Counted from the first letter of the stretch, positions 4,421 through 27,978 are shown. The stretch is 52,658 nt of DNA from Methanosaeta sp. PtaB.Bin018 (GCA_002067755.1 MVQH01000022.1:1-52658); one strand, 5' to 3'. Program-made: numbers and translations. Notes: a model not told the origin generated them from the sequence alone.

Positions 4421-4504
4421 CCTCATTATAAAAAGGAATGATACGGAGTAAGGCGTAAACCATAGTTATGCAACACAGCAATATAAAGTGAAACCAAGAG
4501 ATAG

Positions 4505-5791: not shown

Positions 5792-5802
5792 AGGGTATAT
5801 TC

Positions 5803-8360: not shown

Positions 8361-10011
8361 TTTGACTCCGTTCCTTATAGTATATTTCAAAATTACGACT
8401 ATCGTAAACTTTCACGAATAAATTATTTATTTTATTTATATTTTGAAAAATAGGATCGTATCCTAGATAATATATCAGTCCTGTATGATCCCGTACCGAA
8501 TGAAGTATATAATCAAAGTTTTTATCTAAGTAAAATTTTGCAAGTGGGGGGTACCAAAGAGTAGCAGAACTTCGCTTAAAAGCGTTATATGGATCTTGAT
8601 AATATATTATACTTTTAGCACTTTGTGAAAAATAATAAATTTTTTCTTCTGTTTTGTCTGCAAAAAATTTTGTACCTACCAGTTCTGAAATAGGTATTAC
8701 GCTTGTTTTTGTTCCTCCACCACTATACGCAATTGGATGAATTAAAATAAAAATAACAATTAAAATAAAAAATGGTTTAATATAATTTTTAGGTAAACAA
8801 CTTGCAAAATATGCTGTGCCAATATTAATGAAATACGCTGTACGACCGATGTTAACATCACCTCCATAAGGAATTAAAAATAGAAGCAAGCACGCCATGA
8901 AATAGCTAATCATTAAAGTATTAGATTTATATCTTTTATTTAGAATTAAGGCAGATATCACTAAAAGAGAAATGAGTATACATATTATCAACGGTGAAAG
9001 GTTCGCAAAAATTCCGATTATTCTTTCAGGAGATTGCGACCGTTCTATTTCTCCTACAGTTAACCGATTAGTCAAAATATCAAAGTTTTCAAATGATTCA
9101 AGTATAAAGATGATCGCGTTATTATAAAACCTATATCCCACGTAAATGAGATAGCAAAAAAATAGCGCTATCGATAAAAGTGATAAATTTAGATTTATCT
9201 TTCTAAGAAAGAAATTTATTATATTATAAATAACTGAATATATAATTATTACAAACGGCGCTAATAAATGTGTTATAATAATGCTTAGCAGCACGCAAAT
9301 ATAGAGAAGTGAATAGCGCATATAAGGCTTCTTTGAATTGAGATACACCAAAAATAAAAAAGTTGGAAGTAAGGCATAAGTGAGAAGTTCTGGAACAGAA
9401 AAGAGATGCCAATAACATAGTGGCACAAAAAGAGTTGCCGCAATAAGTGCTCTATTCGATTTTTCGGAAAGATTATAGTAAAAAGCATAGATTATGAACG
9501 TGGTTATAAGTATTATAAAAGCCGGAGAGAACTTTATAAAAGTCAAAATAGGTAATTCAGTTAGTTCAATAAATATTGTAACAAACAAAGGGAAACCTTG
9601 GTAAGCGATATAGGGAAACCCTAGCCAAGGTATTTCATAGGAACATGAGAGGTATGTGCCATCAACAATTTGTTCGGAAATACCTGATACCTGATAAGAA
9701 ACGGGATGTCTACCAGAGGGCTCTATTAGTGGATAAGTCATAAATAGAATTAAAATAAGCAGAACTAAACCGCAATAAAATAAAGTCAAATTGTTAATAA
9801 AATAAGTCTTTATTATGCCTAGTGATACTAAAATTAAAGCTAGCCAAAAATATATCGGCAGTCTGCCGGAAGAGCCCAAAAAATCTTCTGGAATTAAGTA
9901 ATTTATGCTGGTGATGGCTATTGTAAATAGCCATAATATAAACGATAAAGAATAAAATATTAATATAATTTTACAATTCTTATTTAATATATTCTTTACC
10001 CCCTTCCCCAC
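8329..10011 (-). CDS. Large multi-pass membrane protein, possible GT-C glycosyltransferase or polymerase
   Basis: A 560-residue protein with roughly 12-14 hydrophobic segments and a soluble C-terminal tail of about 110 residues rich in Tyr and Lys. A long loop after the second or third segment (PSGRHPVSYQVSGISEQIVDG) resembles the first extracytoplasmic loop of GT-C enzymes that use lipid-phosphate sugars, but I cannot point to a definite catalytic Asp. The start appears to be a GTG at 10009-10011, sharing one base with the stop of the upstream GT2 gene. It could equally be an O-antigen-polymerase-like protein. Confidence 0.6.
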   Translation of the reverse strand: MGKGVKNILNKNCKIILIFYSLSFILWLFTIAITSINYLIPEDFLGSSGRLPIYFWLALILVSLGIIKTYFINNLTLFYCGLVLLILILFMTYPLIEPSGRHPVSYQVSGISEQIVDGTYLSCSYEIPWLGFPYIAYQGFPLFVTIFIELTELPILTFIKFSPAFIILITTFIIYAFYYNLSEKSNRALIAATLFVPLCYWHLFSVPELLTYALLPTFLFLVYLNSKKPYMRYSLLYICVLLSIIITHLLAPFVIIIYSVIYNIINFFLRKINLNLSLLSIALFFCYLIYVGYRFYNNAIIFILESFENFDILTNRLTVGEIERSQSPERIIGIFANLSPLIICILISLLVISALILNKRYKSNTLMISYFMACLLLFLIPYGGDVNIGRTAYFINIGTAYFASCLPKNYIKPFFILIVIFILIHPIAYSGGGTKTSVIPISELVGTKFFADKTEEKIYYFSQSAKSIIYYQDPYNAFKRSSATLWYPPLAKFYLDKNFDYILHSVRDHTGLIYYLGYDPIFQNINKINNLFVKVYDSRNFEIYYKERSQNETNTYNNGR

Positions 10012-10967
10012 TAGATTTTATAGGCATGTCCTTCTAAGAATCCTTTTGCTTCTGCTCTGATCATTTTTTTAAAGCTTTTATCCGGATTAAAGTATGAAGC
10101 ACATAAAGAAAACACCAAAAGGAAGAATTCTCCAAAAAATATAAATAGCATATAGATATCTTTTTCCATTATATACTTAGTTGTGATAGCTTTTATAGAT
10201 TTTCCGCCATTATGAGCGTCCTTTAAAATATCTTCATATTTTTGTCGATGATTATGGTAGATTATGGCATTTGGATCGTACACCATTTTATAATTATGTT
10301 TTAATATCCGATAGAAAATATCTGGATCTTCGCCTCCGACAAAAGTTGTTCCACGACCTAAATTTTCGTCGAAATATCCAATATCATCAAAAATTTTTCT
10401 CCTGAATGAATAAAAACCGTAACCTACAGCCCAGGGAACCGGGGTATTTTCAAAGAGACGTTTACTTCCTATTAGTGTAACCGTTTTTAGGAGTTTTAAA
10501 ATGCTGATATCTTTTTTTGTGAAAATTCGTTTCACTTCGCCTCTATCAAAACTCATGCATTTTTCGTATAATTCGCTTATTTCGTCATTTCTGTAAGTAA
10601 GCATGCGCCCTGTACAACCCATCACATCGGTATCTTTATAATTTTCAATTAATTTTTTAATCCATTTTTTATCGACGATAAAGTCATCATCAGCAAATAC
10701 AAGTATCTCCCCAGAAGATTTCCTTATACCCGTGTTACGAGCTAAAGAAACTCCTCTTCTAGTTTCAAAATAATACCTACCTCCCACCTTTTCTATGAAC
10801 TTCTTGTTCATTTCTCTAATAGATAGGTCCTCACTGCCGTCTATTACTAGAAGTTCCTTATATGGATAACAAGAATACGACTGGATTATGGTTTCTACGC
10901 ATGCTTTGAGATTATTATGCCTATCCTTTGTTGGAATAATTATCGAGACTTCCACTTTTCCACTCAT
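10011..10967 (-). CDS. Family 2 glycosyltransferase
   Basis: A 318-residue GT2 with a GT-A fold: EVSIIIPTKDRHNNLKACVETI at the N-terminus, RRGVSLARNTGIRKSSGE, then the metal-binding FADDDF (about residues 91-96), and GGEDPDIFYRIL acting as the acceptor-side ED motif. A hydrophobic segment near residues 275-297 (LFIFFGEFFLLVFSLCASYF) anchors it to the membrane. It probably adds one sugar to a lipid-linked glycan; donor and acceptor are unknown. Six bp separate it from the DUF362 gene upstream. Confidence 0.88.
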   Translation of the reverse strand: MSGKVEVSIIIPTKDRHNNLKACVETIIQSYSCYPYKELLVIDGSEDLSIREMNKKFIEKVGGRYYFETRRGVSLARNTGIRKSSGEILVFADDDFIVDKKWIKKLIENYKDTDVMGCTGRMLTYRNDEISELYEKCMSFDRGEVKRIFTKKDISILKLLKTVTLIGSKRLFENTPVPWAVGYGFYSFRRKIFDDIGYFDENLGRGTTFVGGEDPDIFYRILKHNYKMVYDPNAIIYHNHRQKYEDILKDAHNGGKSIKAITTKYIMEKDIYMLFIFFGEFFLLVFSLCASYFNPDKSFKKMIRAEAKGFLEGHAYKI

Positions 10968-10973
10968 GATACC

Positions 10974-12041
10974 TCACACCCGTAACAACTTTAATTTGAA
11001 TAGCAAAAGCACTCGCATAATTAATCCCTTTGCGTATCTATATGCATCTTTTCTCAAAATTAAACCAAAGTCAGAAATAAATAGGTAGCCCCTACTAAGA
11101 ACGACAAAACCTACACCCATTTGAGATATAAAACTAGAAACGCCATTGATACCTTTATTTACCTTGAATCTTATTCTGCTTATCCAGAAGGAAAATCTGT
11201 AAGATAAATATGAAGATAGTGGGACAAATTTAAATCTTTCGATTGAATCAATACTAATGTCAGAATCTATGTCCACATCTTTAATCGATCCTATCTTCGC
11301 TTTTTTTGCAAATTTCAGATTTGGAATATGATTTGGATCGAATCCCATAATCTTTGCAGCAACAGCGTCTGAGGATACCGGATTTTTTCCACATATGATT
11401 AGACCGAGTTCCTTTTTGTCGCCATCCGATGGCCCGAACCCCTCCATTCCAACAATTCCATCAATTATGCATAAAGATGGCGTATAAAATTCACTCAAAT
11501 CTGCCAGCACTTCGTTCATGAAGGCATGATACCTTGCCTTCGATTTTCGTGGCAAAAATCCAAACAAATTTTTCATATTGCAGGTTATCTTCTGTTGTGC
11601 ATGCGTTTTAAGCTTCGCTATTGATACAATTTTTGTTGCTTTTAGAAGGGTTTCGGGTACTTCTAGAGTCTCAAAGAAATACCCATCCAGAATTACTTCA
11701 TATCTTTTGTCCTTGCTCAAGTTGACAAGTTCTACTCCAAAGGATTCCGCCAATTCTTTATATCCCATCCTTTGGAATTCCTGATCAGCACTTGCCACAG
11801 CATGATCGCTTTCAACAATCGCAATACGAGGATTTGCATTCTCTTGAATTAGTTTTATAAATGCCCCAACAATCTTGGGATCAGTCGTACCTCCCTCCCA
11901 CGAAGGTCTGAAATCGCAAAGGTTTGGCTTTATAATAATGAAATCTTCATCAACGACGCTGAAACCGCCTAGAATCTCGATTGCTTCTTTCAGATCCTCA
12001 TAGATTTCTTCGACCTTTCTAACGACTACTTTCTCTGTCAT
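10974..12041 (-). CDS. DUF362 domain protein
   Basis: The segments IIIKPNLCDF, WEGGTTDPKIVGAFIKLI, AIVESDHAV, IVSIAKLKTHAQQKITCNMKNLFGFLPRKSKARYHAF and SSDAVAAKIMGFDP are characteristic of DUF362, a family of unknown function often found with ferredoxin domains; none is present here. A short hydrophobic patch lies near the C-terminus. I prefer the ATG at 12041, one base after the upstream stop; a GTG at 12050 would overlap that gene by 8 nt. Neighbouring glycosyltransferases and a sugar oxidoreductase suggest a role in glycan making, by inference only. Confidence 0.8.
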   Translation of the reverse strand: MTEKVVVRKVEEIYEDLKEAIEILGGFSVVDEDFIIIKPNLCDFRPSWEGGTTDPKIVGAFIKLIQENANPRIAIVESDHAVASADQEFQRMGYKELAESFGVELVNLSKDKRYEVILDGYFFETLEVPETLLKATKIVSIAKLKTHAQQKITCNMKNLFGFLPRKSKARYHAFMNEVLADLSEFYTPSLCIIDGIVGMEGFGPSDGDKKELGLIICGKNPVSSDAVAAKIMGFDPNHIPNLKFAKKAKIGSIKDVDIDSDISIDSIERFKFVPLSSYLSYRFSFWISRIRFKVNKGINGVSSFISQMGVGFVVLSRGYLFISDFGLILRKDAYRYAKGLIMRVLLLFKLKLLRV

Positions 12042-12042
12042 C

Positions 12043-13050
12043 TTAACCACTTAAAGACACAGGTATACCAAGCTCACTCGATTCATAGGCCTTCTCGACG
12101 ACCTTTACGGAGTTTATTATCTCATTACCAGTCGTTATTGCCTTCTTGTTCTGCGATATGCATTCGTAGAAATGTCTCAGCTCTTCCTGGTAGGGCGATA
12201 AGGATTTATCAACTTTTATTCTTATTGGTGCTTGGCCTACCAGATCCTTTCTATAATAAATAATCTCATTTTTATTTGCAAAAGTAGTTGCATATCCATC
12301 AAGGCCTATAATAGTCGCCGTGTTTACACTAAGTTTATTCCACCCTACATAAACGGCACAGTTCGCATTACTCTTATACTGCAAATATACAGAAGCGGTA
12401 TCATCAATTGAGTTGTTTGTAAGCGTGGATATCTGTGCAACTACGCTTTTTGCCTCTCCATAGAACCAATTCATTAGATCTATGTGATGGGTGCCCATCT
12501 CGAATAGAGCTCCACCGCCTTCTTTATTTTTATATTGAAACTTAGTTACGCTGGGCCACATAAAAGCATTTGCAAAGAGTGTAGAGTGCCCTCCAACTAT
12601 AGTTCCGAAGAAACCCTTATCGATTAGCTCTTTCATTTTCCTGAATTGAGGGATAAATCTGAAGTTAAACCCTACCATAAGTTTGATATCGTTTCTATGA
12701 CATATGTTTACCATTTCCTCTGCTTCGTCGGTATTTGTTGCAAAAGGCTTTTCGCAAAAAACATGCTTTCCGGCCTCTGCCGCATCTAGCACCATTTGGT
12801 GATGGAACTTGGGTGGGGTCAAAATTACTACTGCATCCACGTCTTTATCTGATAATACTTTCTTGTAATCTTTTTCGGGAATGCCGTCGATATTCAGCTT
12901 TCTTTTTATAGCATTTATTCGCGCTTCACTGATATCTACCAGATATTTTAGCTCAAATTCTGGCATCCGCTGTATGTTCGGCAAATGAAAAATCTCGGCG
13001 ACAGCTCCGCATCCAATAACAGCAAGTTTAATACGTCGAATAAATATCAC
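12043..13050 (-). CDS. Gfo/Idh/MocA-family NAD(P)-dependent sugar oxidoreductase
   Basis: The Rossmann fold shows IKLAVIGCGAVAEIFHLPN at the N-terminus; AVVILTPPKFHHQMVLDAAEAGKHVFCEKP carries the conserved EKP motif, and GGGALFEMGTHHIDLMNWF includes the GxHxxD pattern near residue 180. Such enzymes oxidise or reduce sugars, often UDP- or free sugars, in glycan pathways. The formal start is GTG at 13050, but GGTGA at 13046-13050 would be an ideal ribosome site for an ATT at 13038, giving the family-like N-terminus (M)RRIKLAVIGCG. The stop lies one base before the DUF362 ATG. Confidence 0.88.
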   Translation of the reverse strand: MIFIRRIKLAVIGCGAVAEIFHLPNIQRMPEFELKYLVDISEARINAIKRKLNIDGIPEKDYKKVLSDKDVDAVVILTPPKFHHQMVLDAAEAGKHVFCEKPFATNTDEAEEMVNICHRNDIKLMVGFNFRFIPQFRKMKELIDKGFFGTIVGGHSTLFANAFMWPSVTKFQYKNKEGGGALFEMGTHHIDLMNWFYGEAKSVVAQISTLTNNSIDDTASVYLQYKSNANCAVYVGWNKLSVNTATIIGLDGYATTFANKNEIIYYRKDLVGQAPIRIKVDKSLSPYQEELRHFYECISQNKKAITTGNEIINSVKVVEKAYESSELGIPVSLSG

Positions 13051-13092: not shown

Positions 13093-13992
13093 TCATTTTA
13101 TCTTCCCAGATATATATCCAAGCCCTACAGTTAAGATTACAGTTGATAATAGAAAAGTATCTCTTATATTTATCATCATGTTTTTAAAGTAGAGGATATC
13201 ATCTATCCGCATTGGAATAGCTATCTTGAGCAGATAGCCAAGATAAGAATTCTCCGTTGATAGCTTACTCTTATTGTACATCCTCTCGATATTTGCCTTA
13301 GACTGCCCTTCGTAGTACGCCCGTTTTATCAGATACCTGAATGACTGCCTGTACCTGTGATTCTTATGATGTACAACTGCTAGGGGATCATAGACGATCT
13401 TACAGTTTGGAAAGGCGCTCAGTGCCCTCATACAAAATTCTGTCTCTTCAGCTGTCACCAGCTTCCGCCCGATCCTGCCCAATTTAGTGTCAAACAACCC
13501 GACCTTATCAAACACATCCCTTCTGAAGGACATGTTGCAGCCGTGCACATTCCTCACCGAACATCTCTCTTCAGGATAGCCTTTGTAGGTGAAACCTCCT
13601 ATCCAGTAGAGTTCCTCCGGATAGCTTGGCCTCTCTTTTGGCAAGATCTTGCCACCGACTCCAATAACCATCTCATCTTCGTAATTTTTGACTAGGTTAG
13701 AAAGATAATCTCTATCAGCAATTGCATCGTCATCAATGAATACGAGAATATCTCCCTTTGCATGCGAAATTCCTGTATTGCGGGCCTCGGATAAACCAGG
13801 CCGCTCATTGATTAAGATCTTCACGGACGGAGGAACTGAGCTTCTCAGCGCCTGGAATAATCTGTCGTTCCTGTCCATCACGAGGAGTATCTCTTTGCTC
13901 TCGTAACTCAGTTCCACCAGGGAGTTTATACATGCGACCGTATCAGGCAGAAGGTCCAAGCTATAGGTGCAGACTATTACCGAGACCTTCAT
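13093..13992 (-). CDS. Family 2 glycosyltransferase (membrane-anchored)
   Basis: A 299-residue GT2: VSVIVCTYSLDLLPDTVACINSL, ERPGLSEARNTGISHAKGD, the metal-binding IDDDA (about residue 92), a WIGGF segment, and VTAEETEFCMRAL as the acceptor-side motif. The C-terminal hydrophobic stretch LLSTVILTVGLGYISG anchors it in the membrane. Similar to archaeal Agl-type glycosyltransferases of N-glycan assembly. Its ATG overlaps the upstream gene's TGA (ATGA), so the two are translationally coupled. Confidence 0.88.
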   Translation of the reverse strand: MKVSVIVCTYSLDLLPDTVACINSLVELSYESKEILLVMDRNDRLFQALRSSVPPSVKILINERPGLSEARNTGISHAKGDILVFIDDDAIADRDYLSNLVKNYEDEMVIGVGGKILPKERPSYPEELYWIGGFTYKGYPEERCSVRNVHGCNMSFRRDVFDKVGLFDTKLGRIGRKLVTAEETEFCMRALSAFPNCKIVYDPLAVVHHKNHRYRQSFRYLIKRAYYEGQSKANIERMYNKSKLSTENSYLGYLLKIAIPMRIDDILYFKNMMINIRDTFLLSTVILTVGLGYISGKIK

Positions 13993-15182
13993 TTACATAC
14001 CTTCTCACTCAGTATCCTCATCAGAATCTTCTTTCCATCTCCGAGTGTCTTCAGGTTGCTTGTCCCGTATATCCTCCTTCTTTCATAGGACGGCACCTCA
14101 CATACCTTCAACCCCATCTTCTTCATCATTATTGACTGCTCGGTTTCCACATCAAATCCGTCGGACGTGCATTTCAGCTTGTCCAGAGCACTCTTCTTGA
14201 ACCCTCTATATCCGTAGCAGAGATCTGTATAGTCTGTATCGTAGAGAATGTTCACCAGAGTTACAAAGCAGAGGTTCCCGAAGCGCCTCAGCAGAGAAAG
14301 GTCATCTGAGCCGCCCAGTATCCTGGAGCCCTTGACAGCATCGTACCCATCCATGAGGGGCTTCACAAACTGGGGAATCTCCTGAGGATCCATGGAGCCA
14401 TCTGCATCTATCATTATTACTATGTCCCCGGTAGCGTACTCGAATCCCTTCTTGAGTGCCTTGCCTTTACCTTTAGGCTCCTCTATGAAGATTTTGGCTT
14501 CCGGCCTTATCTTTTTAATGACTTCTACAGTTTTGTCCTTAGAACTATCCACAACCACCACCTCATCCACTATTTGCGGAATCTTAGAGAATACATGGGG
14601 AATGTTATTAGCCTCATTCATTGTTGGAACTACCAGGCTCACTTTGTGTTGACCCTTATCTAGAGCTGAGATATTTGCTAGACGAGCTTTTTCGGGACGT
14701 GGGATGAATAATATTTTTGCTATAATCAAAAGTATTACGAGGCCTATGAGTTCTGGCACGTAGACATGGGGATTATGCTGCAATGCGTTGATGTTATCGT
14801 TGGCCCAATTACTAAGATCCATTTTCTCAAAGCTCAGTCCGAACATGGGCCAGAAAAGGGTATGAGGCTGTTTCCACATGCTGTCTAGCATGAGATGAAC
14901 TGCTGCGGCTACAGGCAGAATGGGCGCCCATTTATGCCCTTTGCTGTACATGTAGGTCGTAATGATTACAAGCATGACTAAGAAGAGAAGTGTATGTGCA
15001 AATATCCTATTATTATAAAAATAATCATAAAATATAATTTGGCCGATCGGCTTATCGATTATATCTGGAATAACAGCGCCTACTACAGTAACAGCCAATA
15101 TCCTATGGCTGAACTTCATTTTTAAAACTACACAAAGTAGATAGATAATTCCAATCGTTATTCCAAGATGGCCAAACAACAA
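13989..15182 (-). CDS. YdjM/DUF457 membrane domain fused to a DPM-synthase-like glycosyltransferase
   Basis: Residues 1 to about 150 are a membrane domain of the YdjM (DUF457) family: FGHLGITIGIIYLL, VVGAVIPDIIDKPIG, NRIFAHTLLFL, PVAAAVHLMLDSMWK and a C-terminal hydrophobic helix; the Asp/His residues suggest a metal site. From about 180 a GT2 domain follows: VSLVVPTMNEANNIPHVF, VVVDSSKDKTVEV, GKGKALKKGF, IMIDADGSMDPQEIP, GSRILGG, LCYGYRGFKKSAL. I chose TTG 15182 because GGGTGAT precedes it and a decayed relative at 21787 starts at the same place (MLFFAHLG); an ATG at 15212 lacks a ribosome site. The fusion may couple lipid-linked donor synthesis with a membrane step. Confidence 0.85.
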   Translation of the reverse strand: MLFGHLGITIGIIYLLCVVLKMKFSHRILAVTVVGAVIPDIIDKPIGQIIFYDYFYNNRIFAHTLLFLVMLVIITTYMYSKGHKWAPILPVAAAVHLMLDSMWKQPHTLFWPMFGLSFEKMDLSNWANDNINALQHNPHVYVPELIGLVILLIIAKILFIPRPEKARLANISALDKGQHKVSLVVPTMNEANNIPHVFSKIPQIVDEVVVVDSSKDKTVEVIKKIRPEAKIFIEEPKGKGKALKKGFEYATGDIVIMIDADGSMDPQEIPQFVKPLMDGYDAVKGSRILGGSDDLSLLRRFGNLCFVTLVNILYDTDYTDLCYGYRGFKKSALDKLKCTSDGFDVETEQSIMMKKMGLKVCEVPSYERRRIYGTSNLKTLGDGKKILMRILSEKVCK

Positions 15183-15250
15183 CGTAAAATCACCCTCTTC
15201 ATAATAAAACATTAATCAAAATAGCAACAGGCTGAATAGATCATTTAGCT

Positions 15251-16531: not shown

Positions 16532-17038
16532 CTAATCAAATATCTTATTCTTGTCTATTCGTGGGATTTTATCTTTGTCCTCAAGGGCCTCTATAATTCC
16601 TTCAACATCTTTTTGCAGCAGAATTCCAGACTCCCAGAATGCTCTGAGAATGGAATACAGATCGATCGTTTCAACACCGACTGCTGCTGCATATCTCAAA
16701 GCAGCCCTATCCATACTGGAGAACACGCACCCTCTCCTCTTGCAGATGCAAATGGCTTCTAGTTCACCCTTTCCAAGCTTTCTGTTCTCAAGGATCAGCA
16801 ACTGGTAATCTTTAGATTCTTCATGAGTTGGATGCAGCACATTAATTCTGTCAAAAATATCCAGAGGATACGTGTACCCAAAATCCAGGGGCGCCATCAG
16901 CTCTTCATAAATCCTTGGAGTTATAAAGACAGAATACCTGTGGAGCAGCTTACTGAGAAGCTCCAATTGGTTTATTTTGGCAAAGGCACTTGCTATATCC
17001 GTATCAAGGATAATCGACTTATCCAAGAATGATGTCAA
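16532..17038 (-). CDS. PIN-domain ribonuclease toxin (DUF3368-like)
   Basis: A 168-residue PIN-fold protein. Acidic active-site candidates are Asp in ILDTDIAS, Glu in KGELEAICI and Asp in SSMDRAALRYA, the usual three to four carboxylates that bind Mg2+/Mn2+. It likely cleaves RNA and is held in check by the UPF0175 protein encoded just upstream. The start is a TTG, at 17038 (20-nt overlap with the antitoxin gene) or 17026 (8-nt overlap); GAGGAG lies just upstream of both. Confidence 0.82.
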   Translation of the reverse strand: MTSFLDKSIILDTDIASAFAKINQLELLSKLLHRYSVFITPRIYEELMAPLDFGYTYPLDIFDRINVLHPTHEESKDYQLLILENRKLGKGELEAICICKRRGCVFSSMDRAALRYAAAVGVETIDLYSILRAFWESGILLQKDVEGIIEALEDKDKIPRIDKNKIFD

Positions 17039-17324
17039 CTCCTCGCTTTATATCTTCCTTGCTGGGAGCTGCATCCACCCTGGCAATTCCTTTGATATCC
17101 AGAATATCCTTAAATCCCTCAAAGGATGTACCTGCAATTTCTGCAGCTCTGGAAAGCGAGATTTTTTCAGATTTGTAAAGCTCGATTGCCATTTCCGTTC
17201 TTATGGCGGGCCTTACTTCAAGCAATGTCCTGAATGCTTCCTCGAACAACGCATCCTTATTCTTGTAATGGCCTGCTCGTATCAAGCCTTCCATTCCATC
17301 CTTCAGAACAGCGTCTGCAGTCAT
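17019..17324 (-). CDS. UPF0175-family antitoxin
   Basis: A 101-residue small protein matching UPF0175: ALFEEAFRTLLEVRPAIRTEMAIELYKSEKISLSRAAEIAGTSFEGF contains the helix-turn-helix-like SLSRAAEIAG. This family pairs with DUF3368/PIN toxins and binds DNA to repress its own operon. The toxin gene overlaps its 3' end, the usual antitoxin-first order. It starts at ATG 17324, close to an inverted-repeat operator candidate. Confidence 0.85.
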   Translation of the reverse strand: MTADAVLKDGMEGLIRAGHYKNKDALFEEAFRTLLEVRPAIRTEMAIELYKSEKISLSRAAEIAGTSFEGFKDILDIKGIARVDAAPSKEDIKRGVDIILG

Positions 17325-17371: not shown

Positions 17372-17580
17372 CCGCCCTCAGCGCCGCCCTCCTCCCTCCT
17401 CAGGCACAGCACTTCTGGCCTTCTGCCATGGCCGCCACCTCTGCCGTGCGGCCCTAGCTGCCGTCGTCTATTACTATTACGCGGTCTGCGTACTTCCTGG
17501 TGCGCAGGACCACGCTGCCTATAGATACTTCTTCGTTATAAGCCGGCAGAATGGCTGTAACTCCACCCAAACCCTACCCT
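17372..17580 (-). pseudogene. Decayed 5' fragment of a GT2 glycosyltransferase (copy 2)
   Basis: The minus strand reads GVTAILPAYNEEVSIGSVVL, RTRKYADRVIVIDDGS, a TAG where the next Ser would be, then GRTAEVAAMAEGQKCCA and stop. It is the N-terminal ~60 residues of a DPM-synthase-like GT2 broken by a nonsense codon and a later frameshift. It closely resembles the fragment at 16130-16312, including the sequence around its truncation point. Confidence 0.78.
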
Positions 17581-18338: not shown

Positions 18339-19004
18339 TCAGATTATTCCTTTTGCTTTCAGAGCAGCTTTTACTTCTGCCATATCGCACTTCAGTTCGA
18401 CGATATCCTTTTCCAGTACCCGATCAAGCTTCCTGTTCACGTCTCTGACTTCGTCCACGAGCTCGTCCTGCTTGCCAAGCATCTGATCCATCTTGCCGCC
18501 CAAGCTCTCATTCATCTGGTCTATCTTACCGCCCAGGTTATCATTCATACCTCTGACTACGCTCAGAAGCTCGTCCTGCTTGCCGCCCAGGTTATCGTTC
18601 ATACCTTTGACTACGCTCAGAAGCTCGTCCTGCTTGCCGCCCAGGTTATCGTTCATCTTATTGACAGCAGAGATAAGCTCTTTTAAATGGCCTGCCGCTG
18701 TGTCCAGCCTTGTGTCGGTCTCGCCTTTTGCCACCAGCTTGCCGAACATATCGAACTCGCCGCTTGCAGGAGAGTAACTCTTTTCCACGGACGAGACATA
18801 GATCAGGGCATTTTTTATATCTATTGCACTCTCGAACCACTTGAGCTTTTCATCCTCGCCCTCGGCCACAATCTTCACCCTGCCGTCCAACAGATTCTCA
18901 ACCATGCCCTTTAGGCCAAAAGCATTTGCTATGTCGACTACCCTTGCTCGATAGCCGACCTCCTGGACTTTGCCGGATACGTATGCCGTGAACCTCATCG
19001 TCAT
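18339..19004 (-). CDS. Acylphosphatase-like domain with C-terminal coiled coil (array copy 1)
   Basis: The first ~90 residues are an acylphosphatase domain: VSGKVQEVGYRARVVDIANAF and GLKGMVENLLDGRVKIVAEG, with both family catalytic residues in place (Arg19 and Asn37). The remaining ~130 residues are a predicted coiled coil built from MNDNLGGKQDELL-type repeats (four NDNLGGK/NESLGGK units) ending in DRVLEKDIVELKCDMAEVKAALKAKGII. Acylphosphatases hydrolyse acyl phosphates; fusion to a coiled coil suggests an oligomeric or scaffolded protein. First of three tandem paralogues on this strand. A leader element AAATACAAAGAGCGTTGAAATT precedes the gene in copies 1 and 2. Confidence 0.85.
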   Translation of the reverse strand: MTMRFTAYVSGKVQEVGYRARVVDIANAFGLKGMVENLLDGRVKIVAEGEDEKLKWFESAIDIKNALIYVSSVEKSYSPASGEFDMFGKLVAKGETDTRLDTAAGHLKELISAVNKMNDNLGGKQDELLSVVKGMNDNLGGKQDELLSVVRGMNDNLGGKIDQMNESLGGKMDQMLGKQDELVDEVRDVNRKLDRVLEKDIVELKCDMAEVKAALKAKGII

Positions 19005-19158
19005 CTACAATTTCAACGCTCTTTGTATTTGGTTTTATCCATGGATGCGTAAATATCATCCACAAGAACGGCAACTACTCCCCCAAATATTCAGATGGAG
19101 AAGGGACTATTATTGCCTTCAGAGCTCCCTTTCAATCATGAGGCCCACAGGGGCAGCT

Positions 19159-19507
19159 CTAGTCCGACGTCAGATGTTCGAGTATGCCCTCTCCAGCCCG
19201 ACCATCCCCAAACGGGTTTTTCCATCCGTTCCCCTGCTCCATCATCAGCCTCACCTTCACCGCCATCCGCAATGAATCCGCCCCGGCGAGGAGGTTGGAC
19301 CCGACCTCCAGAGTCTCCGGGCGCTCAGTTTTATCCCTCAAGGTCACGCAAGTACACCCAGGATACAGGCCTCCTCCCGGCCCCCCGCCGGAGTCAGCCA
19401 GACGGGCACCCGCCTCCAGCTGCAGGAACCCGAGCGGCTCTAGTGGCCCGGACGCCTTCAGCCCCGGGCCCACGCTCCTGCACCTTCTTCATCATCCAGG
19501 GGTGAAC
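19159..19507 (-). pseudogene. Decayed 3' end of UDP-GlcNAc 2-epimerase (wecB), copy A
   Basis: Two minus frames together read HPWMMKKVQERG, EPLGFLQLEAGARLADSGGG, CVTLRDKTERPETLEVG, NLLAGAD and GWKNPFGDGRAGEGILEHL, matching the last ~115 residues of WecB-type epimerases (the LTDSGGxQEE, VTLRDxTERPET and NPFGDGxA motifs). There is a frameshift near 19400-19470, small deletions, and no 5' part. It sits directly upstream of acylphosphatase copy 1. Confidence 0.8.
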
Positions 19508-19545
19508 TGTAAGATGCTGCAGGCAAAGAGAAAGAATCACAAATT

Positions 19546-19609
19546 CTCTGTGTCTTTGTGCCTCTGTGTTTTCGTCGGACTGAACCACAGAGACACAGAG
19601 GCACAGAGG
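19546..19609. repeat. CTCTGTG/CACAGAG imperfect inverted repeat, copy A
   Basis: Arms at 19546-19568 and 19586-19609 pair at about 20 of 23 positions around a 17-nt loop. A second copy is at 20668-20723, and a degraded one near 18140-18180. It lies 3' of an acylphosphatase gene and may act as a terminator or be a small dispersed repeat. Confidence 0.65.
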
Positions 19610-19654
19610 AGATATTTTATGCCCGATTTCACCCACAACAATTCAGCGAAGAGC

Positions 19655-20254
19655 CTAGATTATCCCTTTCGCTCTCAGGGCAGATTTAATCTCTGCCATG
19701 TCGCTCTTCAACTCGAAGATACCCGTTTCAAGTGCCCGATCCATCTTCCGGTTCACATCTTTGACTTCGATAATAAGATTGTCTTGTTTGCCGAGCATCT
19801 TGTCCATCTTTCCGCCCAGGTTATCGTTCATGCTTCTGACTTCGTCAAGAAGCTCATCCTGCTTGCTGAGCATCTTGTCCATCTTTCCGCCCAGGTTATC
19901 GTTCATCTTATTGACCGCAGATACCAGCTCTTTTAGATAGACTGCTGCAGTGTCCAGCCTTGTATCGGTCTCGCCTTTTGTCACGAGCTTTCCGAATTTC
20001 TCGAACTCCCCGCTGGCAGGAGAGTAGCTCTTCTCGATGGATGAGACATGGATAAGTGCATTCTTGATATCAATTGCACTCTCGAACCACTTGATCTTCT
20101 CATCCTCGCCCTCGGCTATGATCTTCACCCTGCCATCCAACAGATTCTCGACCATGCCCTTTAGGCCAAGAGCATTGGCTATATCGACTATCCTAGCTCG
20201 ATATCCGACCTCCTGGACTTTTCCAGATACGTATGCCGTGAACCTCATTGTCAT
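19655..20254 (-). CDS. Acylphosphatase-like domain with C-terminal coiled coil (array copy 2)
   Basis: Same architecture as its neighbours: VSGKVQEVGYRARIVDIANAL and MVENLLDGRVKIIAEG keep the catalytic Arg and Asn. The coiled coil is shortest here, with two NDNLGGKMDKML units each followed by a single KQD step, then VNRKMDRALETGIFELKSDMAEIKSALRAKGII. I chose the ATG at 20254 (MTMRF, as in copy 1); an in-frame TTG at 20266 is less likely. Closest in sequence to copy 3. Confidence 0.84.
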   Translation of the reverse strand: MTMRFTAYVSGKVQEVGYRARIVDIANALGLKGMVENLLDGRVKIIAEGEDEKIKWFESAIDIKNALIHVSSIEKSYSPASGEFEKFGKLVTKGETDTRLDTAAVYLKELVSAVNKMNDNLGGKMDKMLSKQDELLDEVRSMNDNLGGKMDKMLGKQDNLIIEVKDVNRKMDRALETGIFELKSDMAEIKSALRAKGII

Positions 20255-20284
20255 CTGCAATTTCAACGCTCTTTGTATTTGGTT

Positions 20285-20629
20285 TTATCTATGAATGCGT
20301 AGATGCTCGAGTATGCTCTCACCAGCCCGGCCATCCCCGAACGGATTCCTCCATCCGTTCCTCTGCAGCATCATCCGCTTTGCCCTCTCCATCATCTGAT
20401 GAGCATCAGCCCCAGCCAGCACATTCGCCCCCACGTCCAGCGTCTCCGGCCTCTTCGTATTGTCCCGCAGCGTCACGGCAGGGATGTATGCCTCCTCCCG
20501 GCCCCCTCCGCCGGAGTCAGCCAGACGGGCACCCGCATTCGGCTGCAGGAACCCGAGCGGCTCGATGGCCCGGACGCCTTCAGCCCCGGGCCCACACTCC
20601 TGCACCTTCTTCATCATCCAGGGGTGAAC
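20285..20629 (-). pseudogene. Decayed 3' end of UDP-GlcNAc 2-epimerase (wecB), copy B
   Basis: One minus frame reads VHPWMMKKVQECG, AIEPLGFLQPNAGARLADSG, REEAYIPAVTLRDNTKRPET, LDVGANVLAGADAHQM and GWRNPFGDGRAGESILEHL, i.e. the C-terminal ~115 residues of a WecB-type epimerase with internal deletions. The frame stays open but has no start and lacks most of the enzyme, including the N-terminal Rossmann half, so it cannot be functional as an epimerase. Confidence 0.8.
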
Positions 20630-20667
20630 TGTAAGATACTGCAGGCAAATAGAAAGAATCACAAATT

Positions 20668-20723
20668 CTCTGTGTCTTTGTGCCTCTGTGTTTTCGTCGG
20701 ACTGAACCACAGAGGCACAGAGA
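20668..20723. repeat. CTCTGTG/CACAGAG inverted repeat, copy B
   Basis: First arm 20668-20690 is identical to that of copy A; the second arm (20708-20723) is shorter, lacking an internal ACAGAG step. It is placed 3' of acylphosphatase copy 3 exactly as copy A is 3' of copy 2. Confidence 0.6.
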
Positions 20724-20770
20724 AGATAATTTGTGCCCGATCTCACCCACACACTAATTCAGCTAAGAGC

Positions 20771-21406
20771 CTAGATTATCCCTTTCGCCCTCAGGGCAGA
20801 TTTAATCTCTGCCACGTCGCTCTTCAATTCGACAATACCCGTCTCAAGTGCCCGATCCATCCTCCGGTTCACATCTTTGACTTCGACAATAAGATCGTCT
20901 TGTTTGCCAAGCATCTGATCTTGCTTGCCGAGCATCTTGTCCATCTTTCCGCCCAGGTTATCGTTCATGCTTCTGACTTCGTAAAGAAGCTCATCCTGCT
21001 TGTCAAGCATCTGATCCTGCTTGTCAAGCATCTTGTCCATCTTTCTGCCCAGGTTATCGTTCATGTTGTTGACCGCAGATACCAGCTCTTTTAGATAGAC
21101 TGCTGCCGTATCAAGCCTTGTATCGGTCTCGCCCTTTGTCACGAGCTTTCCGAATTTCTCGAACTCCCCGCTAGCAGGAGAGTAGCTCTTCTCGATGGAT
21201 GAGACATGGATAAGTGCATTCTTGATATCGATTGCACTCTCGAACCACTTGATCTTCTCATCCTCGCCCTCGGCTATGATCTTCACCCTGCCGTCCAACA
21301 GGTTCTCGACCATGCCTTTGAGCCCAAATGCGTTGGCGATATCCACTACTCTCGCTCGGTAGCCAGCCTCCTGGACCTTGCCCGAGACAATTGCCGTAAG
21401 CCTCAT
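20771..21406 (-). CDS. Acylphosphatase-like domain with C-terminal coiled coil (array copy 3)
   Basis: Starts MRLTAIVSGKVQEAGYRARV; catalytic Arg and Asn (MVENLLDG) are retained. The coiled coil carries extra seven-residue steps relative to copy 2 (KMLDKQDQMLDKQDELL and KMLGKQDQMLGKQDDLI), i.e. in-phase heptad insertions at two positions. Otherwise copies 2 and 3 are nearly identical from residue ~45 onward. Being the first copy in transcription order, with a slightly different leader, it may be the parental or the recombined unit. Confidence 0.84.
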   Translation of the reverse strand: MRLTAIVSGKVQEAGYRARVVDIANAFGLKGMVENLLDGRVKIIAEGEDEKIKWFESAIDIKNALIHVSSIEKSYSPASGEFEKFGKLVTKGETDTRLDTAAVYLKELVSAVNNMNDNLGRKMDKMLDKQDQMLDKQDELLYEVRSMNDNLGGKMDKMLGKQDQMLGKQDDLIVEVKDVNRRMDRALETGIVELKSDVAEIKSALRAKGII

Positions 21407-21786
21407 CGTCGTCTACAGATTCCATGTTCTTTGTATTTGGTCCTATCTGTCAGGCTATGCAGTTGTGTCTAAGGCCATGAGCTACAGCCTCCGCTGCACA
21501 TGCTGGCACCTCTTATCACCAATCAATTCAGCAGCCAGCATGATCATCCCGAATTAATCCAGAATGATTAAATACTGATTATGCTTCGCTCAAAGCGACA
21601 TATCCTGTTATATAGACCCTCCAATCGCCATCTTTCTCAAGCTTCAAAGTTAGATTTAAATGTTACGTTACCTTGCGTAGATCCAGAGATCTAGATGATA
21701 GCTTCACATCAAAACAAATATCAGTAAGATCTTTCTCCAGCCTGCAAAATAAAAGTTAAATATTTTGCTTTGCAAAATAGGGACCA
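21407..21786. other. 380-bp gap without a gene
   Basis: Upstream region of acylphosphatase copy 3 on one side and of the decayed YdjM gene on the other. A hairpin TATTTTGC-TTT-GCAAAATA lies near 21761-21779, just before the YdjM start. No open frame or repeat of note elsewhere. Confidence 0.5.
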
Positions 21787-22265
21787 ATGCTCTTCTTTGC
21801 ACATCTAGGTCTGGCATTGCTGGCCGCTCGCCCTCTCAGAAGGGTTGACGCGACCTTTCTGGCACTTTGGCTCTATCCTTCCAGATCTCATCGACAAACC
21901 CCTTGGGCTGATGATATTCGGCACCATGAACCATGGCAGAATCTTCGCGCACACGCTGCTCTTTTTGCTTGTCCTTGCAGTGCTTGCCGTCTGCTTCAAG
22001 GACATTTGGCTTGCATCTCTCTCTGCCGGTGTGCTGGCCCACCTGGCCTTGGACGCCATGTGGAACACTCCTGTGATCCTGCTCCGGCCCCTCCTCGGCC
22101 CATTTCCGCCAGCCGACGCTCTTTTTCAGCACCCTGGGCTATCTGAATATGCTCCTCCAGGGCTTGAGAGATCCGAGCATCCTGCTCCCGGAATGCTTGG
22201 GAATGGCATATCTGTTATACTTAGCAAGCGAGAATGGTGCCATGTGGTCTCAACCGAGGACCTGA
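21787..22265 (+). pseudogene. Frameshifted stand-alone YdjM/DUF457 membrane protein
   Basis: Three frames joined give MLFFAHLGLALLAARPLRR, then LTRPFWHFGSILPDLIDKPL, MIFGTMNHGRIFAHTLLFLL, AGVLAHLALDAMWNTP, LLRPLLGPFPP, and finally LGYLNMLLQGLRDPSILLPE with CLGMAYLLYL. This is the complete length (about 158 codons) of the membrane domain fused to a glycosyltransferase at 13989-15182, with frameshifts near 21840 and 22120. A ribosome site (AGGGACC) precedes the ATG. Confidence 0.82.
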
Positions 22266-22280
22266 CTTACTGATGCCGCA

Positions 22281-22594: not shown

Positions 22595-23257
22595 TCAGAT
22601 CGATAGACGTACATCATTCTCCATCACTCTTGGAGATGCTTGTTGCGTGTGAATGTAGACTTTATCTTCTATACCATAGCCGAAGGATTTAAGATCATAG
22701 TACATGAAGCACCACCACAGTGGCATCTCTGTAAAAGGTTTGTTGTTATCAGGGTCAAGATCAAGCACCTTTGTACCAGCTGCAAGACCACTTACTGTAT
22801 TCAACCGGAGATCATTGGTCTGTGTCCTCTGCATGCCCACATCCGCCACACAGTAAACTGGATCGTTGAAATCGTATCCATATGGCTCATGCAGGCCCAA
22901 GAACACTATGCTTGGATTGATGAAATCGCTCAGTTTCGCACTGCAATCCCTGTCAGAGACTCTTACTGTGGTGCCGGGAGCAAAATGTCCGAAGGCAGAG
23001 AGCCTTATATCTCCCTCGTCGACTACAGCATTGGCGAGATTTATGATATCCAGATATACGATATCGTTCGCATCGTAGCCATTGGAGAGTCGGTCGAGGT
23101 ATCTTATGACAGGTGTCACGGGGAAGGACTGTAAGGGCAAGCCTCTGTCTACGTCCTTGGCTGCAACTTTTGATCCAAACTCATATGCCAGGCATCCAGT
23201 GGTCAAGACCAAGATCAAGCCTGCTCCAAGTATACAGGCTCTGATAAGTCCTTTCAT
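22595..23257 (-). CDS. Secreted repeat protein of unknown function (pair member B)
   Basis: A 220-residue protein with a signal peptide (MKGLIRACILGAGLILVL, cleavage near TGCLA, possibly lipobox-like). The mature part contains three imperfect copies of a unit built from YDANDIVYLDI, a spacer, (G/N)D(I/L)RL, then G..A.G..V.D.D.D. It is clearly paralogous to the next gene, which overlaps its start by 4 nt. I do not recognise a named family; the Asp-rich steps could bind Ca2+, but this is speculation. Confidence 0.75.
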   Translation of the reverse strand: MKGLIRACILGAGLILVLTTGCLAYEFGSKVAAKDVDRGLPLQSFPVTPVIRYLDRLSNGYDANDIVYLDIINLANAVVDEGDIRLSAFGHFAPGTTVRVSDRDCSAKLSDFINPSIVFLGLHEPYGYDFNDPVYCVADVGMQRTQTNDLRLNTVSGLAAGTKVLDLDPDNNKPFTEMPLWWCFMYYDLKSFGYGIEDKVYIHTQQASPRVMENDVRLSI

Positions 23258-23952
23258 ATCGCCATCCTGATGTCATTTATTGTGATCGTGTAGAACGGGT
23301 ACTGAGTATCGATATAGATTTTATCTCCCTGATCGTATATTGCCCATCCCGCATTGTTGATGTTGCCGTTCGCATTGAAGAAGTTGAACATTCCTGGCAG
23401 TAGTGAGGTAGGCTTATCTGCATCTACATCTGAATCCTCAACCCGGCTTCCTGCCTCATAACCCATGTAACCTGTTATTCTTATGTCACCAGAGTTGACC
23501 TTTCCGGGATTGATGTCCAAATATACAGGATCGTCGATGCTGTAAGCTTTGTCGCCTTTGGAATCGAAATACCTCAGCTCAACTGCAGGATAAGGCATGA
23601 CTCCGAATCTTGATAGCTTGTTTCCGTAGTCCGGGTCCGAGAGCCCTACCTGGCAGCCTGCTGGAAAGTCTCCAAAAGGAGTGATTCGCAAATCGTTCTC
23701 GCTTACGAAGTTGCTATTCGGATCGATATGAATATATACGGGATCTCCCGGGTCGAATGTTCCTATAATGCCCGCATCTACAAAAGCAAAGATCGGGGCA
23801 ACATAAAATGGATTCATCGCCCGCGACTCGTCCACGTCATTTAGCAGCACCTTGGATCCATACTTCAGCTCTTCTTGGGCTGCAACTGAGAACGTAAAGA
23901 ATGCCAATATCATCGAAATCAAAAAGATCTTTTGGTTGATATGTGATACCAT
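23254..23952 (-). CDS. Secreted repeat protein of unknown function (pair member A)
   Basis: A 232-residue paralogue of the downstream gene. Signal peptide KIFLISMILAFFTFSVAAQ; then KYGSKVLLNDVDESRAM and three units such as FDPGDPVYIHI...ENDLRITPFG, YSIDDPVYLDI...SGDIRITGYMG and YDQGDKIYIDT...INDIRMAI. GGGGGTG lies six nt before the ATG. A TATA-like TTATAAATTA (23991-24000, minus strand) precedes it, so the two genes probably form one transcription unit. Confidence 0.78.
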   Translation of the reverse strand: MVSHINQKIFLISMILAFFTFSVAAQEELKYGSKVLLNDVDESRAMNPFYVAPIFAFVDAGIIGTFDPGDPVYIHIDPNSNFVSENDLRITPFGDFPAGCQVGLSDPDYGNKLSRFGVMPYPAVELRYFDSKGDKAYSIDDPVYLDINPGKVNSGDIRITGYMGYEAGSRVEDSDVDADKPTSLLPGMFNFFNANGNINNAGWAIYDQGDKIYIDTQYPFYTITINDIRMAI

Positions 23953-24699: not shown

Positions 24700-27600
24700 A
24701 TGGAGGAAGACTTTGAAATTAAGATCAAAGATGTTCTGCAAGTCATCGAAGATTTGCAGCAGATGGGCTCAAAGGCAGTATCACTGTCTGTTGATCATAT
24801 GGTCACCGGACAGCATATCTCTACAAGATCGCGATCTGAATCATATCTGGCTCTCTCGCAAAGAGGTCCTTCAAAGTTACAGCATGCATGGCGCTGTGAA
24901 TCGGGAGATGAGGTTGGCCTTGCAGGGTGTGTGAAAGATATGATCGAGCACAAGCAAGCTGATACAGAGACAAAGAAGATGGCAAAAGTCGTGGAGACGG
25001 CACCCACTGCAGTTGTGCTAACCGACCTGGATGGCCGCATCGAGTATGTCAACCCCTGCCTCCTGAAGAGCGGAGGATTTCAGGATGCATCTGAGGTGAT
25101 TGGAAGACCAGTATTTGATTTTACCAATGAAGAGGGTAAAAACAAGATCAAAGACGAGGTCATACCAGCCCTCTTCTCCCAAGACCGATGGCAGGGAGAG
25201 CTGACGTTGCGAAGAAAAGACGGCAGAACTTACATCGCAGAGATGATCTGTGCCCTTGTAAGAGATGATTTCGGAACTCCGAGCTACTTCCTGGTCAACT
25301 TCTACGATATAACAAACCGCAAACAGGCTGAAGAAGCCCTTCTATTGGATGACGCTCGGCTGGAGGCCCTTGTGAAGCTCAACCAGATGGACGAGGCCTC
25401 CATGCAAGAGATAACCGACTTCGCACTGGAGGCAGGAGTAAAGCTCACCAACTCAAAACTGGGATACTTGGCCTTTGTAGACGAAGATGAGAAGACCCTC
25501 GTAATGCACTCCTGGTCCAAGAGAGCTATTCAGGAGTGCGATATAGATCATAAGAAGACTGTTTATCCTCTAGACGAGACGGGCCTTTGGGGTGAGGCTC
25601 TGCGACAGAGAAAAGCGAAAATAACCAACGACTATTCGTCTTGCCATCAGAAAAGGGGCGTTCCAGCGGGCCATGTTAGAATTCTTCGGCACATGAATGT
25701 TCCCATTATGGACAAGGGCAAGATCGTAATTGTGGCAGGGGTCGGCAATAAGGATGAAGATTACAATGATGCAGATGTGCGGCAGCTCACTTTGCTCATG
25801 AGCGGAATGTGGAAGCTCATCTTGCGCCGCAGGACTGATGAGGAGCTGCATAGGCGCGATCGCTTGCTGCAAGGCGTTGCACAGGCGACAAATCATCTCC
25901 TATCCTCCGATCCAAATGCCATACAAAAGGCCCTTGAGATCCTGGGAAAGGCCGCGGATATAGACCGCGTATTTATCATGGAAAATAGTGAAATGGGGGG
26001 CGATGAGCACCTGCTGCTGGAGTGGTGCCGCGAGGATGTAAAGGCAGACGTAGACGACGCTTTGCCAAGAGAGATATCAAGTAATGCCCTTTTTTGGGGT
26101 TGGCATGAGATTTTAGCCTCTGGCAGTACCATCCAAGGGTCGGTTTCGAAGATATCCTCGCCGGGGCGTGAGTTTCTAGAACGGCTGAAGGTCAAGTCCT
26201 TTTTAATTGCGCCGATATTCATCGACGGCAAGTTCTCAGCAATCATAGGCTTTAACGACTGCCGCAATGACCGCAAGTGGGTGGAGAATGAAGTTGCAAT
26301 TCTACAGGCGGCAGCTGGGTCGATCGGCGAGGCAATAATGCGCAGACGCGCAGAGGTGGCCCTGAAAAGGACTTATGAGGAACTGGAGAAGAGGGTACAT
26401 GAGAGGACCTCCTGGCTCATGAAAGCCAACGAAGCACTTCACGAGGAGATGGCCAAGCATAAGAAAACGGAGAATGAGCTTCGCAGAGCTCAACAGGCTG
26501 CAGATGCCGCATCCAGGGCGAAGAGTGAGTTCTTGGCCAACATGAGTCACGAGATACGCACCCCCATGAACGCAGTGATAGGCCTTACAGGTCTTTTGCT
26601 TGAAACGGACCTTGCACCGGAGCAACGCGATTATGTGGAGACCATCCACACCAGTGGAGAAGCATTGCTATCCATAATCAACGATATCCTGGACTTCTCG
26701 AAGATTGAAGAAGGGAAGATGGAGCTGGAGCTTCAAATCATCGATCTTAGGAAGTGCATAGAGACCTCGCTGGATATGGTAGCGGCAGAGGCTGCCGAGA
26801 AGGGATTGGATCTGAGCTATGTGATGGATGATGATCTGCCACAAACAATTCATGCGGATCCCGTTCGGCTGCATCAGATTCTGACCAACTTGCTGAGCAA
26901 CGCAGTTAAGTTCACTGACCATGGTCGTGTGACGATCGCCGCACATCCAGGAGATGAGCCAGGCAAGATCCATTTCATAGTTAAGGATACGGGAATTGGA
27001 ATCTCTCAGGAGAACATCGGCAAGCTATTTCAGTCATTCAGTCAGCTGGATACATCAACTTGCAGGAAATATGGTGGCACAGGCCTTGGCCTGGCCATAA
27101 GCAGCAAGCTCGTAGAGCTTATGGGCGGCGAGATCTGGGCAAAGAGCGATCTTGGGAAAGGCTCTGAATTTCACTTTACAATAAAATCAGAGGCCATTTT
27201 AGAAGAGGAGCAAGACCGCAGGCTTGTCGGAAAGAAGATGCTGGTGGTGATAAACGACGAGGCCTCCCTCAAGAGCCTAAGAGACCATGCTCATGAATGG
27301 GGGATGCAGATATATCCTGTGGTCTCGGCCAGAGAGGCAAGGGAGATTGCAGGAAACCGCTTCGACGTTGCAGTTCTGGATATTCAGATGCCAGGATCTG
27401 AAAAACTGAGGGTGGAACTGCAGGGAAAGCTTCCTGTGATCTTGCTTTCAACCTCGGAGCAGGATGGTGCGAGCAAAGGCACCTTGGGAAAATCCGTCAA
27501 GCTCTCTGGGCTGCGTGCAGCATTGCTCGAGGCACTCTCTCGCAGTGGTCGCTGGAAAAAGGTCACCAGCCCCAAGGCTGATCACAAGGATATGAAAATC

Positions 27601-27978
27601 CTGCTGGCTGAGGACAATCCTGTCAACAGGAAGGTTGCGCTTCTAATGCTGAAGAAGCTCGGCTACAGTGCTGATGTGGCTGCCAACGGCCTGGAGGTTC
27701 TGCAATCGCTGAAGCACAAGGATTATGACGTGATCTTAATGGACGTGCAGATGCCGGAGATGGATGGACTCAAGGCTGCAAAATTCATCAATGAGATGAA
27801 CCTGAAGAGGAGGCCCGCAATTCTTGCAATGACGGCATACGCCCTTGAAGGTGACAGAGAAAGATGTCTGAACGCAGGCATGGACGGCTACATCTCCAAG
27901 CCCGTTAAGATCGAAGAATTGAGATCCGCCCTTGAGGATCTACAAATCCGTCCTCTGGATCAGTCCTCTGGATCCTAA
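24700..27978 (+). CDS. Hybrid sensor histidine kinase (PAS-GAF-GAF-HisKA-HATPase-REC-REC)
   Basis: A 1092-residue soluble kinase without membrane segments. Domains: PAS (about 95-208), GAF (225-375; GLWGEALRQRKAKITNDY is typical), second GAF (385-545), coiled coil (550-605), HisKA with phospho-acceptor His617 in NMSHEIRTPMNAVIG, HATPase (about 715-828; N box NLLSNAVKF, DTGIGI, GGTGLGLAI), a REC domain (845-945) keeping Asp894 but poorly conserved around it, and a standard REC (965-1080) with Asp1015 in ILMDVQMPEMDG and Lys1067. It likely senses a cytoplasmic ligand or redox state. No separate response regulator gene is adjacent, so output may go through another locus. Confidence 0.92.
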   Translation: MEEDFEIKIKDVLQVIEDLQQMGSKAVSLSVDHMVTGQHISTRSRSESYLALSQRGPSKLQHAWRCESGDEVGLAGCVKDMIEHKQADTETKKMAKVVETAPTAVVLTDLDGRIEYVNPCLLKSGGFQDASEVIGRPVFDFTNEEGKNKIKDEVIPALFSQDRWQGELTLRRKDGRTYIAEMICALVRDDFGTPSYFLVNFYDITNRKQAEEALLLDDARLEALVKLNQMDEASMQEITDFALEAGVKLTNSKLGYLAFVDEDEKTLVMHSWSKRAIQECDIDHKKTVYPLDETGLWGEALRQRKAKITNDYSSCHQKRGVPAGHVRILRHMNVPIMDKGKIVIVAGVGNKDEDYNDADVRQLTLLMSGMWKLILRRRTDEELHRRDRLLQGVAQATNHLLSSDPNAIQKALEILGKAADIDRVFIMENSEMGGDEHLLLEWCREDVKADVDDALPREISSNALFWGWHEILASGSTIQGSVSKISSPGREFLERLKVKSFLIAPIFIDGKFSAIIGFNDCRNDRKWVENEVAILQAAAGSIGEAIMRRRAEVALKRTYEELEKRVHERTSWLMKANEALHEEMAKHKKTENELRRAQQAADAASRAKSEFLANMSHEIRTPMNAVIGLTGLLLETDLAPEQRDYVETIHTSGEALLSIINDILDFSKIEEGKMELELQIIDLRKCIETSLDMVAAEAAEKGLDLSYVMDDDLPQTIHADPVRLHQILTNLLSNAVKFTDHGRVTIAAHPGDEPGKIHFIVKDTGIGISQENIGKLFQSFSQLDTSTCRKYGGTGLGLAISSKLVELMGGEIWAKSDLGKGSEFHFTIKSEAILEEEQDRRLVGKKMLVVINDEASLKSLRDHAHEWGMQIYPVVSAREAREIAGNRFDVAVLDIQMPGSEKLRVELQGKLPVILLSTSEQDGASKGTLGKSVKLSGLRAALLEALSRSGRWKKVTSPKADHKDMKILLAEDNPVNRKVALLMLKKLGYSADVAANGLEVLQSLKHKDYDVILMDVQMPEMDGLKAAKFINEMNLKRRPAILAMTAYALEGDRERCLNAGMDGYISKPVKIEELRSALEDLQIRPLDQSSGS

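Follow-up and report, generated by a model that had tools for sequence, protein, structure and literature searches.

The window, i.e. the whole stretch of 52,658 nt analysed here, is contig C22 (MVQH01000022.1) of the 2.2-Mb genome of Methanosaeta sp. PtaB.Bin018 (GCA_002067755.1). Positions 18339-21406 carry three open reading frames on the minus strand; in each encoded protein, an intact acylphosphatase (AcP) domain is extended at its C-terminus by a long helical tail. The features of this array are as follows:

21428..21441, minus strand: ACCAAATACAAAGA element before copy 3; 14 nt, about 27 nt ahead of the MRxTA start; putative BRE/TATA box
20771..21406, minus strand: copy 3; 211 aa; AcP domain ~21394-21152, then a helical tail with additional KQDQMLD and KQDQMLG heptads
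20300..20635, minus strand: spacer between copies 3 and 2; C-terminal remnant of a UDP-GlcNAc 2-epimerase (wecB-type), PF02350 positions 220-346
20270..20283, minus strand: the same ACCAAATACAAAGA element before copy 2; putative promoter
19655..20254, minus strand: copy 2; AcP domain ~20236-19994; helical tail, the shortest of the three; start at ATG 20254 (MTMRF), alternative start at 20248
19171..19467, minus strand: spacer between copies 2 and 1; second remnant, C-terminus of a UDP-GlcNAc 2-epimerase, PF02350 positions 240-346
19020..19033, minus strand: the same ACCAAATACAAAGA element before copy 1; putative promoter
18339..19004, minus strand: copy 1; 221 aa; AcP domain ~18986-18744; tail of 18- and 11-residue units; alternative ATG at 18998

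The acylphosphatase family PF00708 was recognized in all three copies with E values of 7e-17 to 2.8e-18 (62-66 bits, as compared to a cut-off of 22.5), and each of them retains the catalytic Arg and Asn, in agreement with a sequence-only reading of this DNA that had described three fusions of an acylphosphatase to a coiled-coil-type tail with both residues kept. The same reading attributed the differences between the copies to in-phase steps of seven residues. Copy 3 indeed contains one KQDQMLD and one KQDQMLG heptad more than copy 2, but the steps are not confined to heptads, hendecads being used as well. Copy 1, correctly said to differ in the number of its NDNLGGK units, has more of them, arranged as two 18-residue units (MNDNLGGKQDELLSVV[KR]G) plus 11-residue units. 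At the DNA level, TRF recovers the tail arrays of the window as 21-, 33-, 54- and 96-bp repeats.

The spacers between the three genes measure about 500-650 bp, and both contain a UDP-GlcNAc 2-epimerase remnant; an intact gene for this enzyme is located elsewhere in the genome (C71:62681-63655). Since a stretch of 157 nt with 97% identity is common to the two spacers, the epimerase remnant and the AcP gene were probably duplicated as one unit. Upstream of copy 3, no epimerase remnant was found. The ACCAAATACAAAGA element, common to all three copies and also present, with variation, in front of their orthologues, fits the BRE/TATA box of a leaderless archaeal transcript, which would make it a candidate promoter for each copy. 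A short repeat, ACACAGAGGCACAAAGACACAGAG, occurs in both spacers (19520-19620 and 20650-20740), and a similar sequence lies near 18170.

Identity between the copies shifts along the gene, copies 1 and 2 being most alike at the 5' end and copies 2 and 3 being 93-98% identical mid-gene, which suggests gene conversion. Named relatives of the encoded protein were from Methanothrix/Methanosaeta MAGs and one other Methanotrichaceae MAG. Copies 2 and 3 are nearest to two copies in genome G022 (loci L100 and L071, respectively), from which they are separated by a synonymous distance of about 0.17-0.20; for copy 1, the nearest is a copy in G011 (L070; 0.15), whereas the synonymous distance among the window copies is 0.55-1.33. 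As each window copy is closer to its counterpart in G022 or G011 than to its neighbours, the array probably predates those species. Locus L100, apparently orthologous to the window array, has a PIN-like gene (1437-1892) between two AcP copies.

An AlphaFold model of copy 1 (mean pLDDT 83.6) predicts an AcP fold, a low-confidence hinge at residues ~80-92 and one continuous helix from 93 to 215. At 0.40, this monomer model has a low pTM, in keeping with a head and a helix that hold no fixed position relative to one another. Nearly all of the nearest solved structures are acylphosphatases (E 5.7e-8, TMt 0.83), the best of which share about 40% identity with copy 1 in the fold search. With acylphosphatases (PF00708, EC 3.6.1.7; PDB 1ulr, 8jfs, 2bjd) the family has in common the fold, the phosphate-binding loop GxVQxVGYR and the catalytic Arg and Asn. 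However, solved and curated acylphosphatases are single-domain proteins of about 90 residues, whereas the proteins considered here exist in multiple copies and typically add 75-190 residues of periodic helix. The NCBIfam equivalogs for single-domain acylphosphatases (PRK144xx) do not apply to the window proteins of 198-221 aa, the best score being 62.5 against a cut-off of 100. The carbamoyltransferase HypF likewise carries an AcP domain, at its N-terminus, within a larger protein, and was found as a fold match (PDB 4g9i, 3vth); assignment to HypF was rejected, as only the AcP domain scored above the cut-off, zinc-finger, YrdC and Kae1-like domains were not detected, and the tail is helix only.

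No description of such AcP-stalk fusions was found in the literature searched, most subscription journals lying outside that search. The Methanocella genome paper names acylphosphatase merely in a pathway legend. A possible link to a paper on TRADD-N domains (PMC8195603) was dropped, acylphosphatases being mentioned there only as a related RRM-like fold.

Searches of archaeal genomes, proposed by the sequence-only reading, covered 26 Methanothrix genomes, all of which contain AcP loci (2-22 per genome); most of these loci lie in open frames that are 180-300 residues long. Relatives matching past the AcP domain also turned up in further families, both of the class and, more widely, of the phylum, and many genomes, including groups of large genomes that look like haloarchaea, gave a single AcP match only. 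Two subgroups can be distinguished, A, which resembles the window copies, and B, with a GPKVHDVGYR-type motif and tails of EMKGDIK, NTDSIPQIKE or related units. Further tandem arrays comprise five genes (L183, L189) or three genes (L176, L190). The AcP domains of L178 and L180/L181, which belong to different families, are 96-97% shared, suggesting transfer. The array, taken by the first reading as a duplicated tandem trio, does consist of three genes in tandem, with epimerase-remnant spacers between them, but about ten such genes exist in this genome, and the trio makes up a single locus of a family that is dispersed and occurs throughout the lineage.

The genome of the window contains 11 AcP loci, one of which is a fragment and one an ordinary single-domain enzyme (on contig C42); nearly all others have helical tails. 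The separate single-domain acylphosphatase supports the earlier suggestion that the fusions are not housekeeping enzymes. One of the AcP genes runs off contig C93 within a KQDQMLD array (L013, ~5335), and a matching tail starts at the end of contig C101 (L113, 1462-1710), so that these are probably two parts of one gene, split by the assembler in the 21-bp repeat; the true set probably differs slightly from 11 loci. In another locus (L118, 1088-1839), what is left of the tail of an AcP-stalk gene directly adjoins a truncated ORF resembling isopropylmalate/isocitrate dehydrogenases.

Among related genes, the tails follow steps that are much more regular than expected by chance. A significant internal period was found in 95 of 121 tails, and in 90 of these it was 7, 11 or a sum of these units (best lags of 7 in 55 tails, 14/21/28 in 11, 11 in 13, 22 in one, 18/25/32/39 in ten, and 10 or 17 in five); these counts, like those of the length steps, were taken over related sequences and hence do not represent independent events. 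According to PMC9369452, periods of 7, 10, 11 and 18 are those of coiled coils that contain stutters and stammers. As in the general class of coiled-coil proteins built from heptads, decads and hendecads, the AcP-stalk tails have repeat units that suit coiled-coil packing; unlike in that class, the variable coil is attached to an enzyme head and differs between paralogues within a genome. The hydrophobic period of the tails has a median of 3.56 and lies between 3.4 and 3.75 in 98% of 116 tails. Together with the continuous helix predicted for residues 93-215 of copy 1, the median value falls into the range expected of coiled coils (3.5-3.67). A convincing membrane segment was not observed in the tails analysed. 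With one exception, the DNA repeats in the tails are multiples of 3.

Tail differences between close genes amounted to 7, 11 or sums thereof in 32 of 34 events, which were hand-picked and non-independent. The tail of copy 2 differs from that of its orthologue by a step of 22+7, and the tandem copies of L183 differ by 7, 14, 21 and 28 residues. The AcP domains of the three tandem copies in L176 are 100% identical, but their tails differ by 7, 21 and 28 residues. An AcP tree based on few columns and with weak support shows 20 or more changes of the period class. Tails on heads other than AcP were not found; the matches inspected in six genomes were all on AcP genes or fragments.

Across many genomes, the catalytic Arg is present in 127 and the Asn in 126 of 128 complete AcP domains, and the exceptions (L042, L078) look decayed. 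Pairwise comparison of nine close genes gave a median dN/dS of 0.086 in the AcP part, as compared to 0.20 in the tail. The enzyme part is under purifying selection, as had been surmised from the retained catalytic residues. Two observations that were named in advance as speaking against a selected enzyme-coil system, namely unrelated tails combined with frequent loss of the catalytic residues, and a dN/dS near 1, were not made: diverse as they are, the tails are nearly all of one periodic helical type, the catalytic residues are kept, and dN/dS is far below 1.

To account for these results, we propose, giving it about an even chance, that the proteins are soluble, coiled-coil-bundled acylphosphatases whose stalks are altered by in-frame minisatellite slippage. 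In this lineage-specific family, an enzyme head with an intact active site would sit at the end of a long, amphipathic helix, and pairing of such helices in coiled-coil bundles would generate a soluble rod bearing several AcP heads. Duplication and gene conversion may generate the copies, with a short putative promoter retained in front of every local copy, and replication slippage of the 21-, 33- or 54-bp minisatellites could lengthen or shorten the rods, with selection presumably retaining only those steps that preserve the register of the coil. The heads would hydrolyze an acyl-phosphate such as acetyl-phosphate, carbamoyl-phosphate, 1,3-bisphosphoglycerate or protein aspartyl-phosphate, and the stalk might set valency, reach and self-sorting among paralogues. 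We consider it quite doubtful that stalk length itself (reach, valency, partner sorting) is the selected trait and that the stalk acts as a rapidly evolving ruler, built into the enzyme and adjusted in quantised coil steps by slippage of in-frame minisatellites.

The gene neighbourhood did not point to a common partner, including one for the putative scaffold, sensor or structural system that the sequence-only reading had suggested. An all-against-all comparison of ORFs near AcP genes yielded no recurrent family except for orthologous loci, and when Pfam matches around 19 AcP regions were compared to 19 random regions of the same genomes, none of the families listed, 25 per set, occurred more than 3 times among 237 neighbours, a depth at which minor differences may be overlooked. 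The many copies without an operon partner could also reflect a weakly selected expansion. The expansion might be largely non-adaptive, a slippage- and duplication-prone gene piling up in gene-poor islands while few copies are needed. The range from 2 to 22 copies among congeners and the existence of fragments and decayed copies (L012, L042, L078) would agree with this, as would the shorter ORFs near AcP genes (170 aa, as compared to 220 aa in the random control regions) and, among the families listed, the lower number matched near AcP genes than in the controls and the fact that PIN and nucleotidyltransferase families are the commonest neighbours, though with 3 occurrences each. However, the near-complete retention of the active site argues against non-adaptive expansion as the whole story; dN/dS is low over many paralogues and species, and other species contain orthologues of the array copies, with which these form pairs of low dS. 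We therefore regard this explanation as unlikely.

Formation of bundles by the stalked acylphosphatases, as proposed above, is not the only behaviour compatible with the predicted structure, because long helices of this kind may likewise serve as stalks of monomers or as binding sites for a different protein. Some heptads (KQDQMLD) place a polar residue at a putative core position, which counts against bundling, and the prolines in the 10-residue unit NTDSIPQIKE of some group B tails are hard to square with a simple continuous coil. The tails might instead dock to one common partner, such as a membrane, cytoskeletal or metabolic complex, and thereby tether the enzyme. Among close relatives, the last ~25 tail residues (ELKSDMAEVKxALRAKGII and related) are more conserved than the repeats, which speaks for docking; however, no conserved neighbour encodes such a partner and the tails are very diverse between paralogues, so that we consider docking quite unlikely.

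Aspartyl-phosphates on proteins are among the known substrates of acylphosphatases, and the heads could be CheZ- or Rap-like phosphatases of response regulators, different coils choosing different two-component partners. A hybrid histidine kinase that includes a receiver is encoded at 24700-27978, 3.3 kb from the window array, and within the Methanotrichaceae the numbers of AcP and receiver domains are weakly correlated (rho 0.41; partial 0.29 given genome size). This association is absent when 70 near-complete genomes are taken together (rho 0.04), and also when only the other families are considered (rho -0.06), the receivers counted being first-look candidates; there are genomes rich in AcP but poor in receivers, such as G082 (15 as compared to 4, at 68% completeness), and recurrent adjacency to kinases or receivers was not found around AcP genes, rendering this function very unlikely. 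A role in the regulation or quality control of surface-polysaccharide assembly, the arrays marking glycan loci, appears similarly improbable, since most AcP copies are located elsewhere and, in four genomes, 6 of 20 independent loci were within 20 kb of GT2/GT4 genes against 3.4 expected (p = 0.11, not significant), even though the window array adjoins genes for glycosyltransferases, a flippase and a pyruvyl transferase as well as the epimerase remnants, the five-gene array of L189 is followed by genes for a sugar-nucleotide dehydrogenase and dTDP-rhamnose-type enzymes, a DegT/UDP-sugar dehydrogenase pair flanks one copy in L192, and an epimerase gene lies immediately upstream of another in L092.

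Membership in a known anti-phage defence family was rejected, as the PADLOC matches were weak and consistent with generic coiled-coil similarity.

Acylphosphatase is among the smallest and best-studied enzymes, yet its role in the cell is poorly defined. In a lineage that includes major aceticlastic methane producers and their relatives, the number of versions, most of them stalked, rises to about 20 in a genome, with active sites nearly all kept; the role of the enzyme can thus be tested in cells to which it is clearly of importance. For the effect of a coding minisatellite on coiled-coil length, a natural series is moreover provided by tandem copies whose heads are identical and whose tails differ by exact heptads.

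Some further features were noted in the surroundings of AcP genes. Judged by eye, a CRISPR-like repeat array is situated beside a three-gene AcP cluster in genome G216 (L090, ~9800-12300), and cas1-, cas2- and cas4-like ORFs are situated beside the AcP cluster of L190 in G259 (3668-7547). In the window, a UPF0175 gene followed by a PIN-like gene (16532-17324, minus strand) resembles a toxin-antitoxin pair; no Pfam or NCBIfam model matches the PIN-like gene, relatives of which occur near the AcP genes of L082 and L089. Two adjacent paralogues on the minus strand (22595-23257 and 23254-23952) have signal-peptide-like N-termini and a repeated DPVYxDI...DIRI-type pattern; neither has a Pfam match, and the former is also without an NCBIfam match. 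Apparent gene remnants comprise the first part of a family 2 glycosyltransferase, interrupted by an internal stop (~17420-17560, minus strand), and a YdjM-like fragment (21845-22273, plus strand), which is related to a domain encoded at 13989-15212.
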